This document shows, one piece after another, positions 20,841 to 24,714 of a DNA stretch of 64,000 nt. This stretch comes from Thalassomonas actiniarum (GTDB taxonomy: Bacteria; Pseudomonadota; Gammaproteobacteria; Enterobacterales; Alteromonadaceae): assembly GCF_000948975.2 (NCBI RefSeq), contig NZ_CP059735.1, forward strand, positions 4,896,603 through 4,960,602, read 5' to 3'. The notes under the pieces were generated by a model, which worked only from the letters and a program-made list of their open reading frames with translations, made no database searches and was not told where the DNA came from. The number at the start of each line of letters is the position of its first letter. Position 1 is the stretch's first letter. The position numbers and the translations under genes are program-made.

Positions 20841-21029
20841 TTAACAGAAACATTCAATGTCATAACGGGCAGGATATCACTGAAGAATAATGATCAGCAT
20901 AACGCTATTCCTGCATCAGATAACTGCACGCACCAACAAAGACGCTAGCGGCTTAGTTCGAGTATTAAGCAAAATACCACTAAACTGATATTAGCTGTGA
21001 GTTGCTCAAAACTGAGTCAGGCCAAAATA

Positions 21030-23420
21030 ATGAAGTTATTTAGGTTAACTTATCTTCATTTGATAATTAGCTTTATTGCTCTCCCTTGCCTATATGCCCC
21101 TTATGGCCATACCTCCTCCCGGCCCTCCTTCGAGAACCACCCGCCAAAGGCCGGCAAACATCATCAGAAAAATGAGGACTCAGGTTTAGAAACCATTACC
21201 GTCACGGCGCAAAAGCAGGAGCAAAACCTGCTGGAGGTACCGCTTGCCATTACCTTGCTTAACCGGGAGCAAATCGAGATGACTTATGCCGCCAATATCG
21301 AACAGCTGCAATCCCTGGTGCCAAGCCTGAGTTTCAGAAAAGGCAATACCACCCGCAATTCCGCTTTAACCTTAAGGGGCATAGGCACCATTTCTTTCAG
21401 TATTGCCGCCGAACCCAGCGTATCCACAGTTGTTGACGGGGTCGTGCTCGGCCGCTCGGGCCAGGCTTTTTCCGGCTTATATGATCTTGAGCGCATCGAA
21501 GTATTAAGGGGGCCGCAGGGCACCTTATTCGGAAAAAATGCTTCCGCCGGCGTGGTCAATATCGTTACCCGGGAGCCCGATGATGATTTTACCGCCTCGA
21601 TAACCACCAGCTATTTTCAGCAGGACGAATACCGGCTCAATGCCCGCATGTCCGGCCCGTTAAGCGACAGTATTTCCGGCAGTTTAAGCCTGTTGCGCGC
21701 CGGGTTTAACGGTCACCTGAGTAATGTTTATACCCGGGAGCGGGCCGACGGCTATAACCACCAGGGGGCCCGCGGCATTTTGCAATATAAAAATGACAAG
21801 CATAACCGGGAGCTGAAGTTTATCCTTGAGTACTTTGACGCCGACGATACTTGCTGCACCGATATCGAAGGCTTGCCAAGCGGTTTTAACAGCACCTCGG
21901 AGGCAGCTCCCGACAGCCGGGGAATTGTTGACGGTGTTGCCGACATCGACCTTGGACAGCGCAAGATAGATCATGACTTTACCACTAAAACTTTAGATAA
22001 AACCTCGGCGCTGTCATTTCATATCGAACAAGATTATGCAAAACATCACTTTCATGCCATTTCCGCCTACCGGCGCTGGGAAAACACCGAAATTCGCGAA
22101 GGAGATTTTTCCTCAACCGGGGGAAAAACAGCGCAGCCGGTGGACTTTTCTTCAGTGTTTTATCAAATGCACGATATCGGCCCGCAACTATGGCAACAAT
22201 TTTCACAGGAGTTCAGGCTAAGCTCAATCAATAACGATCCGGACAATAACGGTAATAGCTACCAGCTCGGTGCATTTTTCTGGTATCAGGATGTAGATCG
22301 CAACTTTACCCGTTTCGCCAGCTGCCAGAACGATAAAGGACAAAATCAGGATATTTTACAGCAAAACCCCGGCCTCACCTGCCTGGCCACAGAGATAGTC
22401 GATGCCAGGGCCGACATGTACAGTAAATTCATTAACTATGCCCTCTATGGCAGCGGTGAATATTTGTTTCGCGAAGACTTACACTTATTGTATGGCCTGC
22501 GTTTTGGCCATGACAAGCTTTCCTATCATCACAAACGGGTCAATAACGATCCCTGGGGCAGAGCCGGGGTCGGTGTTCAACGGCGCAGTCATGATACCCG
22601 GCTTAACGGCGAAACCCGTGATAACAAGCTGTCAATAAAACTCGGCGCCCGTTATCACTTATCCGGCTCCGGCCAAATTTATGGTCACTGGAGCCAGGGC
22701 TACAAAGGACCCGGCTTTAATGTTTATTACAACATGAAACCAACGGAAACCGGTGTTATCGATGCCGAACAGTCGGATGCTTTTGAACTCGGTCTTAAGT
22801 ACAACCAAAACAATTTGCTGTTAACATCGGCATTATTTTATAGCCGCTTTACCGGCTTCCAGGCCAATAATTTCGACTGCAGCACCGGGGTTTGCATCAC
22901 CCGGCTCACCAATGCAGGAGATGTGTCTACCCGGGGAATTGAAGCGGACTTTTTCTGGCAAGCCGGCGATAACTTAGAGTTTTATGGCGGAGTTTCCCTG
23001 GTACGCGCCCAAATCGATAAATTTAACTGCCCTTTGGAACAAGCATGCAGTGCCAGATCCGGTTTAGAAGTGCCCTTTTCTCCCGATCGCAAATACTCCA
23101 TCGCCGCCAATTATTATCTTGCAACCCAAAGGGTTCAGATCAAAATCAATGCCAGCTATAACTATACTGATGAGCAATACGCAGAATTACCGGACAATGA
23201 AGGTATATTTTCCCCTGCCGCCTTGCTAGCGTCCTATGGTCTTTGGAATGCTGCCATTGAATTTTCTTTTGCCGATGATCAATACCGGCTTTCCCTGATT
23301 GGCAAAAACTTAGCCGATAACAGCTACACTAACACTTATAGCGGCAGTGGTTTCAGATATAAAATTCCCCGTAATGCCGACCGTTATTTTGGACTTTCAT
23401 TACAAATCAACTTTGAATGA
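21030..23420 (+). CDS. TonB-dependent outer-membrane receptor
   Basis: A 796-residue receptor. The signal sequence follows ATG 21030 (hydrophobic LHLIISFIALPCLY); a GTG 11 codons earlier is possible but would place charged residues before it. The TonB box is ETITVTAQ. The plug domain has EVPLAITLLNREQIE and RIEVLRGPQGTLFGKNASAG. The C-terminal barrel ends in the usual aromatic signature, YFGLSLQINF. It takes up a bulky ligand such as a siderophore or oligosaccharide, which cannot be chosen from sequence. It is followed after 41 bp by a periplasmic binding-type protein, and then by a precursor peptide, so the three may form one cassette. Confidence 0.93.
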   Translation: MKLFRLTYLHLIISFIALPCLYAPYGHTSSRPSFENHPPKAGKHHQKNEDSGLETITVTAQKQEQNLLEVPLAITLLNREQIEMTYAANIEQLQSLVPSLSFRKGNTTRNSALTLRGIGTISFSIAAEPSVSTVVDGVVLGRSGQAFSGLYDLERIEVLRGPQGTLFGKNASAGVVNIVTREPDDDFTASITTSYFQQDEYRLNARMSGPLSDSISGSLSLLRAGFNGHLSNVYTRERADGYNHQGARGILQYKNDKHNRELKFILEYFDADDTCCTDIEGLPSGFNSTSEAAPDSRGIVDGVADIDLGQRKIDHDFTTKTLDKTSALSFHIEQDYAKHHFHAISAYRRWENTEIREGDFSSTGGKTAQPVDFSSVFYQMHDIGPQLWQQFSQEFRLSSINNDPDNNGNSYQLGAFFWYQDVDRNFTRFASCQNDKGQNQDILQQNPGLTCLATEIVDARADMYSKFINYALYGSGEYLFREDLHLLYGLRFGHDKLSYHHKRVNNDPWGRAGVGVQRRSHDTRLNGETRDNKLSIKLGARYHLSGSGQIYGHWSQGYKGPGFNVYYNMKPTETGVIDAEQSDAFELGLKYNQNNLLLTSALFYSRFTGFQANNFDCSTGVCITRLTNAGDVSTRGIEADFFWQAGDNLEFYGGVSLVRAQIDKFNCPLEQACSARSGLEVPFSPDRKYSIAANYYLATQRVQIKINASYNYTDEQYAELPDNEGIFSPAALLASYGLWNAAIEFSFADDQYRLSLIGKNLADNSYTNTYSGSGFRYKIPRNADRYFGLSLQINFE

Positions 23421-23461
23421 TAACGGCTTCTATTTTGTAAAAGAGTAAATAACGAGAAAAG

Positions 23462-24367
23462 ATGTCAGCTATCAATAAATGCTCCCCCACACCCAGGAAA
23501 CACCCCAGCTTTTTAGGGGTGATTTTCGCTTTGTCATACCTGACATTCCCTTGGTTTCAACCTGTATTTGCCAAAGAACCCCCGTCAGTCGTGACACATG
23601 CAGATACAAGCCCAAAAAACATCATCTTGACCATATCCAGCCGCAATGACTCAAACGTCGCATTTTATCGTGATTTATTACAGCAAGCCCTGGCCCTGAG
23701 CGGTTACCACACCAAAATAAATTTTATCGGTAACTTAAGTTATTTACGGCAGGTTAATTACCTCAAACATGGAAAAATAGACTTAATCTGGCGGCTGGGC
23801 ACTCATGAAAGAGATTTGGCCTTTAAGCGGGTTGATATCGGCCTGACCAACGGCATGATCGGCAAGCGTATCTTCCTGATCCCCAAAGGCGATCAGTGGA
23901 AATTTGACCGTATCAACAAGCTGACTGATTTTATCAAACATAAACTGACCGGGGGTTTTGGTGAAAAGTGGTTTGATATTGAGATCTGGAAATACAACCG
24001 GCTGCCTTATGTGGAAATTCCGGGGGATAACAATAAAATTTATCCCATGCTCGCCAGTAAAAGGCGTAATATCGACTATTTGTCACGGGGCATGAATGAA
24101 ATTATCGGTGATGCCAGACTATATCCTGACCTTGAAGTTGAGCAAAGATTATTATTTATTTATCAAAGGGATATATATTTTTACCTGGGGCCGTCAGCAA
24201 TACAATATCACTCGATACTGGAGCATAGCTTACGGCTGGCAGAAAAAGCGGGATTGATCAAAACCTTGATACATAAACACTGGGGTGATATCGGCAACCT
24301 TTTGCAACTGGATAAACGCCACAGAATACACCTGCAAATGCCTCCCGAGGAGGAGCTGACAAAGTAA
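23462..24367 (+). CDS. Periplasmic substrate-binding-like protein
   Basis: A 301-residue exported protein with a hydrophobic signal region at about residues 18-37 (ending VFAKEP). The fold signs of a type 2 periplasmic binding protein are seen: ILTISSRNDSNVAFYRDLL, GKIDLIWRLGTHERDLAF, and a closing helix EKAGLIKTLIHKHWGD. It lacks neighbouring permease or ATPase genes, so it is more likely a signal or uptake partner than part of an ABC transporter. It starts 41 bp after the TonB receptor, probably in the same transcript. The ligand is unknown. Confidence 0.8.
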   Translation: MSAINKCSPTPRKHPSFLGVIFALSYLTFPWFQPVFAKEPPSVVTHADTSPKNIILTISSRNDSNVAFYRDLLQQALALSGYHTKINFIGNLSYLRQVNYLKHGKIDLIWRLGTHERDLAFKRVDIGLTNGMIGKRIFLIPKGDQWKFDRINKLTDFIKHKLTGGFGEKWFDIEIWKYNRLPYVEIPGDNNKIYPMLASKRRNIDYLSRGMNEIIGDARLYPDLEVEQRLLFIYQRDIYFYLGPSAIQYHSILEHSLRLAEKAGLIKTLIHKHWGDIGNLLQLDKRHRIHLQMPPEEELTK

Positions 24368-24420: not shown

Positions 24421-24449
24421 TTGACAATTGCAAATGTTAACGATATGTT
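24421..24449 (+). promoter_or_regulatory. Sigma-70 promoter of the precursor peptide gene
   Basis: A perfect -35 box TTGACA (24421-24426), a 17-bp spacer and -10 TATGTT (24444-24449), ahead of the 53-residue peptide gene at 24501. This separates the peptide from the upstream receptor operon. Confidence 0.75.
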
Positions 24450-24500
24450 ATATTTGCACCTAATTCAGGGCATTTATCACATTAATAAAAAGGACGTATT

Positions 24501-24662
24501 ATGAAAATTAAACTGAATAAGCAAAAAATCAAAAACCTGTCTAGAGATCAACAAGCTTTACCTCAAGAGATGACCCCGCAAGTTGCCGGCGGCGGTATCA
24601 CGGGTTATCCGAGACCCTGGCCTTCAGAAACAGGCAACCGCTATTATGCCTGCGAATGTTAA
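24501..24662 (+). CDS. RiPP-type precursor peptide with double-glycine leader (lanthipeptide-like)
   Basis: A 53-residue peptide. The leader begins MKIKLNKQKIKNLSRD, then passes through LPQEMTPQVAGGG. This pattern (Lys/Leu-rich start, LNK, N-L-S, TPQVAGG) resembles the leaders of class I lanthipeptide-type precursors of marine gammaproteobacteria. Cleavage after GG would leave a core of about 20 residues starting at GITGYP, with one Ser, two Thr and two Cys at the very end (ACEC), enough for up to two thioether rings. AAGGA lies before the ATG, a strong promoter upstream and a 12-bp hairpin downstream. No synthetase, peptidase or exporter gene is visible in the window, so any modifying enzyme must lie elsewhere. 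Confidence 0.75.
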   Translation: MKIKLNKQKIKNLSRDQQALPQEMTPQVAGGGITGYPRPWPSETGNRYYACEC

Positions 24663-24687
24663 ATCAACTTTAGGGTAAATTTGAATC

Positions 24688-24714
24688 TCAAGGGATTAAC
24701 AGTTAATCCCTTGA
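24688..24714. terminator. Terminator hairpin after the precursor peptide
   Basis: A perfect 12-bp stem TCAAGGGATTAA / TTAATCCCTTGA with a 3-nt loop, followed by TTAAAT. It lies between the convergent peptide and MiaE genes and may serve both. The T-tract is weak. Confidence 0.75.

Follow-up and report, generated by a model that had tools for sequence, protein, structure and literature searches.

Putative class I lanthipeptide precursors scattered across the Thalassomonas actiniarum genome, probably served by one remote LanB

A small gene in the window (the whole 64,000-nucleotide stretch of T. actiniarum DNA analyzed here) is, judging from sequence comparison, quite likely one unit of a scattered library of class I lanthipeptide precursors that LanB modifies in trans. 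One remote enzyme set probably turns most of the ~29 precursors of this genome into different cyclic peptides, an arrangement for which ocean cyanobacteria are known to use enzymes of another class. The leader they share (LxLxKx5L ... TPQV-GG) would deliver the peptides to LanB, of which we found a single copy in this genome and which would use glutamyl-tRNA to dehydrate Ser and Thr residues of the core. The neighboring LanC, perhaps also the second LanC, would then add Cys thiols to give lanthionine rings, and the first HlyD/C39 exporter pair of Table 1 (perhaps also the second pair) would cut after the GG and secrete the product. We infer that each gene is transcribed on its own and that the window peptide is recognized, dehydrated, cyclized and exported in this way; an antibacterial and a signaling role are both possible for the product. 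The first-pass annotation had suggested a RiPP precursor whose leader resembles those of class I lanthipeptides and which may be served in trans, and this suggestion gains support from the LanB and LanC genes of the genome and from the leader family. The novel class that it offered as an alternative is unneeded.

The window gene and its scattered relatives

The 53-residue gene is real, and its promoter, start, stop and hairpin are retained beside miaE in two congeneric genomes. The open reading frame, the promoter hexamers with 17-bp spacing, the AAGGA, the GG site and the 12-bp hairpin claimed by the first-pass annotation are all in place (Table 1); the leader it quoted, LNKQKIKNLS...TPQVAGGG, is present as well, although the quotation omits the first four residues, MKIK. 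As a sequence match alone, the promoter is at chance level (11 promoter-like sites per 5 kb versus 10.0 ± 3.3 in shuffles), and the -10 hexamer, which ends at 24449 after a 17-base spacer from the TTGACA at 24421, matches TATAAT at 4/6 positions; however, both hexamers and their spacing are kept at the equal place 5' of both orthologues found, with a different spacer sequence.

Both arms of the hairpin stem (24688-24699 and 24703-24714) are perfect, and the fold reaches -17 kcal/mol versus -9.4 ± 2.3 in shuffles (z -3.3; 2/200 shuffles equally good). The hairpin is retained in G002 and in G001, where both partners of one stem pair are altered (C-G to A-T). No T-run follows the stem, and the hairpin is absent from the list of the terminator scan. 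Comparison of the downstream sequence placed miaE next to the orthologous gene in both congeneric genomes too. In G003, no orthologue with a similar core could be paired to the window gene. Directly upstream of the precursor gene, window positions 20997-24367 hold a TonB-dependent receptor (Pfam) and then a protein of 301 aa that matched no family of Pfam or NCBIfam.

Table 1. Coordinates of the window gene, its signals and the enzymes and exporters found elsewhere in the genome (C1 and C2, contigs; other positions are those of the window)
Feature	Position	Strand	Details
Precursor open reading frame	24501-24662	+	53 aa, MKIKLNKQKIKNLSRDQQALPQEMTPQVAGGGITGYPRPWPSETGNRYYACEC
Promoter TTGACA-N17-TATGTT	24421..24449	+	sequence; also before orthologues in L131, L111
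Ribosome-binding site AAGGA	24490..24494	+	6 bases 5' of ATG
Leader MKIKLNKQKIKNLSRDQQALPQEMTPQVAGG, 31 codons, presumed GG cleavage site	24501..24593	+	alignment of 29 leaders
Core GITGYPRPWPSETGNRYYACEC, 22 aa (T3, S11, T13, C20, C22), and stop codon	24594..24662	+	
12-bp hairpin with 3-base loop, between the gene and convergent miaE	24688..24714	+	presumed transcript end
LanB	C1:5278339-5281461		1040 aa; only LanB found in genome
Second LanC	C1:2734928-2736148		
LanM, class II	C2:773089-776439		TIGR03897, 997 bits
HlyD/C39 exporter pair	C1:6392912-6396370		
Second HlyD/C39 pair	C1:88848-92308		
SagD-like YcaO	C1:3179615-3180556 (L208 6539-8671, C1 3.18 Mb)		TIGR03604, 199 bits, cut-off 219

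The leader of the window peptide is typical of its family. Its I3-x-L5-x-K7-x5-L13 and terminal AGGG reproduce the LxLxKx5L/GG motif with I for the first L, and K7, L13, T25 and G30 are invariant in the alignment of the 29 own-genome leaders. By profile score it is sixth of 133 distinct peptides (71.1 bits, from a profile that includes it). Curated leader models fit the family poorly: at E up to 1, NF038153 (lant_leader_L1a of NCBIfam) matched 2/29 members and NF038158 6/29, with best E values of 0.53 and 0.043. The window peptide scored 10.5 bits with NF038153, below the cut-off of 22, and gave no match to NF038158; no Pfam family matched it at E up to 0.1, and it was not recognized as carrying a Nif11-family leader.

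Homologues with a conserved leader and a variable core, whose absence would by the first-pass annotation have refuted its reading, were found in number: 29 in the genome itself (7.49 Mb; 23 on contig 1 and six on contig 2) and 119 members collected from 10 genomes. Among the 29, leader identity to the window peptide ranges from 42 to 76%, and the cores are mostly unrelated. The genes are dispersed, and for 24/29 the nearest lanthipeptide enzyme or C39 exporter that we found is over 10 kb away; the five within 10 kb are two beside LanB, one near each of the two HlyD/C39 pairs (2.7 and 0.2 kb) and one at a distance of 9.7 kb from the second LanC. The window gene is not among the 2/29 that adjoin LanB/LanC and lies 357 kb from it. 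Those two precursors have leaders that are each 42% identical to the window leader, among the least similar, and it is therefore only by inference that we propose a shared recognition.

Upstream of the 29 genes, the ribosome-binding region alone was enriched: AATAAGGA occurs at -25 to -1 in 10/29 paralogues (shuffle maximum 3), and from -150 to -26 no k-mer rose above shuffles that could mark a regulator site. The mean best sigma-70 match was 8.6 versus 8.4 in shuffles, and we therefore claim no family-wide promoter.

When named genomes were scanned by pattern, 18 loci came up, spread over Pseudoalteromonas, Thalassomonas sp. RHCl1, Rheinheimera and a single Gammaproteobacterium assembled from a metagenome; plasmid records gave no match to one family member used as the query. 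Of 23 search hits in G001, 22 were kept among the collected members; the one dropped is probably a hit with an internal stop. L147 and L158 were kept though a start codon is missing where expected, the start of L159 is irregular, and all three may be broken; L030 (E 1.1, internal stop) was left out as a chance match. While going through the lists of open reading frames, we also spotted by eye a repeated small protein family (ECAF..DAF..EPECI..TSEG) at L048 5796-6083, L049 12970-13266 and L124 11946-12287.

Composition and evolution of the cores

Cys accounts for 10.2% of core residues versus 1/3686 leader residues across the 119 members, and 114/119 cores contain both Cys and Ser/Thr. We observed that each Cys can be given its own upstream Ser/Thr in 61/64 non-redundant cores, compared with 49.5 ± 2.8 when cores were shuffled with Cys fixed; 11 control residue classes in the same test gave z from -1.8 to 1.4. 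Ser/Thr frequency is 0.32, 0.24 and 0.29 at -3, -4 and -5 of Cys versus 0.17 overall; it is also raised, though less so, at +2 (0.255). Some Ser/Thr lies upstream of every Cys, 176/176, in 63 non-redundant cores (this set holds 63 or 64 cores, by analysis, because of tie order in clustering). Lanthionine rings closed from N to C would select such an order of Ser/Thr before Cys, and disulfides are not expected to.

Family cores evolve under purifying selection. Measured against three congeners, core dN/dS was 0.067 for G002 (22 pairs), 0.144 for G001 (11 pairs) and 0.187 for G003 (10 pairs), values that are lowered by the choice of pairs with similar cores; the leaders gave 0.088, 0.062 and 0.122, respectively. 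Cys was conserved at 32/33 positions between G000 and G001 and at 27/27 between G000 and G003. Ser/Thr was kept more often than other residues in G001 (48/56 versus 131/211, significant); the comparison in G003 (44/53 versus 156/209) was not significant (p 0.28), and the close G002 showed no difference between residue classes.

The window core is identical in G002, and its G001 orthologue, which has AGSG in place of AGGG, keeps all five Ser, Thr and Cys residues with 6/17 other residues changed. This retention of three Ser/Thr and both Cys, together with the high profile score of the leader, speaks against a reading that we regard as unlikely, in which the window peptide has drifted out of the lanthipeptide family and is a GG peptide cut and exported by C39 while remaining undehydrated, its two Cys free or joined in a disulfide. 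What lends this reading some weight is the unusual spacing in the window core, the sole one among 27 Cys-bearing own-genome cores without Ser/Thr at -2 to -5 of any Cys; Ser/Thr does precede Cys in it, and any rings would span at least seven residues, e.g., from T13 to C20. The 5/119 family cores without Cys also show that the leader is no guarantee of rings. These five comprise L029, L024 and the three orthologues of L024, and the own-genome ones both lie near HlyD/C39 pairs. The Cys-less members (in the own genome, L045 10469-10666 and L044 6125-6310; orthologues of the L045 one in L118, L144 and L154) perhaps give linear or signaling products.

Partner enzymes and their co-occurrence with the leader

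Lanthionine synthetases and C39 peptidases, which the first-pass annotation had proposed to search for, are both encoded in the genome: we found one LanB, two LanC (one adjoining LanB), one LanM and five C39 domains, and two YcaO genes besides. Two of the five C39 domains are part of HlyD/C39 pairs, and these pairs match exporters encoded in relatives' clusters. Most of the LanB sequence can be aligned to NisB and to PDB 9g04, and LanB retains the Arg residues matching NisB R784, R786 and R826 and an HxHxNR stretch; LanC retains WCYG and CHG. We take these conserved motifs of the two enzymes to be catalytic or zinc-binding.

The leader occurs in 8/59 genomes, own included, and LanB occurs in exactly the same eight, one in each. 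With four of the eight leader-bearing genomes from one genus, the Fisher p value is 4.5e-10, or 2.6e-7 when counted by genus. The leader-bearing genomes hold 29, 23, 29 and 15 members in the own genus and 14, 3, 2 and 2 in the others. Across 394 genomes of the order, a sample that overlaps the 59 and in which the best 20 candidates per genome were scored (hence at least 20 for the own genome), the leader was present in five, all with a LanB at E below 1e-50; three of the other 389 had LanB-like matches (E 1.7e-20, 1.0e-18 and 9.5e-4). LanC domains were found in the eight leader-bearing genomes and two more of the 59.

Because the leader tracks LanB (8/8) and not LanM-sized proteins (at most 4/8), we do not see a ProcM-type LanM as the partner of the family, an argument that is indirect. 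The class II LanM could in principle take the scattered precursors in place of LanB, given that it is encoded in the own genome, that a G001 precursor lies ~1 kb from a LanM (L219 6788-6991, 7873-11208) and that prochlorosins, the scattered system already known, use LanM. We reasoned that this is very unlikely, since LanM-sized LanC-domain frames occur in no more than four of the eight leader-bearing genomes (G000, G001, G002 and, with a 934-aa frame, G019), G014 and G049 have such frames (995 and 870 aa) and no leader, and G020 combines 14 precursors with one LanC-domain match and one LanB. A crude scan beside the own-genome LanM for a small precursor yielded one unconvincing frame.

Modification of the window peptide by a YcaO or a radical SAM enzyme, to give azolines or another thioether, is most improbable: the SagD-like YcaO, at 199 bits for a cut-off of 219, may be an azoline-type cyclodehydratase, and 2/29 members weakly match the rSAM-RiPP family TIGR04149 (best E 0.035), but the SagD-like gene and the family member closest to it are ~99 kb apart, azolines would not be expected to produce the Ser/Thr-before-Cys order, and SPASM domains, in 5/8 leader-bearing and 18/51 other genomes, do not track the leader, for which reason an rSAM maturase was rejected as partner. 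The second YcaO, 2 kb from member L010, is of the OsmC/YcaO type (TIGR03549, 1509 bits) and was taken as a chance neighbor. The SagD-like gene perhaps marks a separate azoline RiPP locus.

The locus layouts of relatives also speak for modification by LanB. Precursor, LanC, LanB, HlyD and C39 occur together in G019, G361, G027 and G126 (the G027 precursor is divergent; G126 has a different gene order and a LanB interrupted by the contig end), and all five lie within 10 kb in G031. In G020, LanB, LanC, C39 and HlyD are together (L161 5067-12922) with no leader match in the 14 kb covered, and its 14 precursors are elsewhere. G003 has a precursor directly 5' of LanC (L216 5743-5970, 6082-7269) and no LanB in the 14 kb covered. 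Two own-genome genes that best resemble those of relatives' clusters sit apart from LanB, namely the C39 exporter (78.6% to its G020 counterpart) and the LanC closest to that of five of six such clusters, a dispersal that would fit a compact ancestral cluster having become scattered. We consider likely, if a little less so than the placing of the window gene in the library, a hub-and-spoke arrangement in Thalassomonas and some relatives, in which one LanB and at least one LanC would act on up to 29 precursors dispersed over the genome to give a separate conserved product from each, and which would have arisen as an older precursor-LanC-LanB-HlyD-C39 cluster, now partly split, became scattered.

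Comparison with known lanthipeptide systems

Thalassomonasins from T. actiniarum and viridisins from T. viridans are class I LanB/LanC products, as proposed here. According to a review (PMC11433236), the thalassomonasin leader has 29 residues, versus 31 here, and the cores of thalassomonasins A and B have 25 aa with three Cys and 26 aa with two Cys. The precursors beside LanB in the own genome, with cores of 25 aa and three Cys and of 26 aa and two Cys, agree with these published peptides. Three precursors at the G001 LanB locus have cores of 26, 25 and 28 aa with four, two and two Cys, to which the viridisins VdsA1-3 are close, with VdsA1 given 25 aa in the same text versus 26 here. The review names two clustered precursors for thalassomonasins and three for viridisins, whereas in the own genome 27 members, the window gene among them, are located away from LanB.

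Prochlorosins and synechococsins, as two papers describe them (PMC10783134, PMC11251773), combine a conserved GG leader and diverse cores with one synthetase and precursor genes scattered over the genome. The family here is alike in its conserved GG leader, diverse cores, scattered genes and single LanB per genome, a LanB whose promiscuity we presume. It differs in that prochlorosins have a class II LanM, a Nif11-family leader and a CCC cyclase, whereas here there are a class I LanB, a separate LanC with WCYG and CHG, another leader and a gammaproteobacterial host. The arrangement is best read as a class I counterpart of the prochlorosins and, given its other leader and other synthetase class, not as a member of them. 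If this is right, the combinatorial strategy that ProcM exemplifies in nature could also be sustained by class I enzymes with an ordinary cyclase. A single LanB deletion would then reveal what a large scattered lanthipeptide library does; a 2024 paper describes prochlorosins as being without any assigned function (PMC11251773).

Class I precursors of Bacteroidetes have an LxLxKx5L leader with a GG end, often with a C39 peptidase in the cluster, according to Walker et al. (PMC7268733); the window peptide shares this motif, with I for the first L, and the GG end. Mining in that study was limited to seven genes either side of LanC, a restriction that may be why genes of this kind have escaped notice, and would probably have missed most of the 29 own-genome precursors. 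If the proposed library is real, mining near LanC alone misses most lanthipeptides of these bacteria (29 genes versus two beside LanB here). A literature search by title and abstract, with the primary Thalassomonas papers outside its range, gave no account of a scattered class I library or of remote class I precursors. PciA of Pseudoalteromonas citrea (PMC9993889) is a further class I lanthipeptide from a marine gammaproteobacterium; it was produced in E. coli and is presented as a single cluster. Among the collected family members are 100 distinct Cys-bearing cores, which are candidates for natural substrates of class I enzymes.
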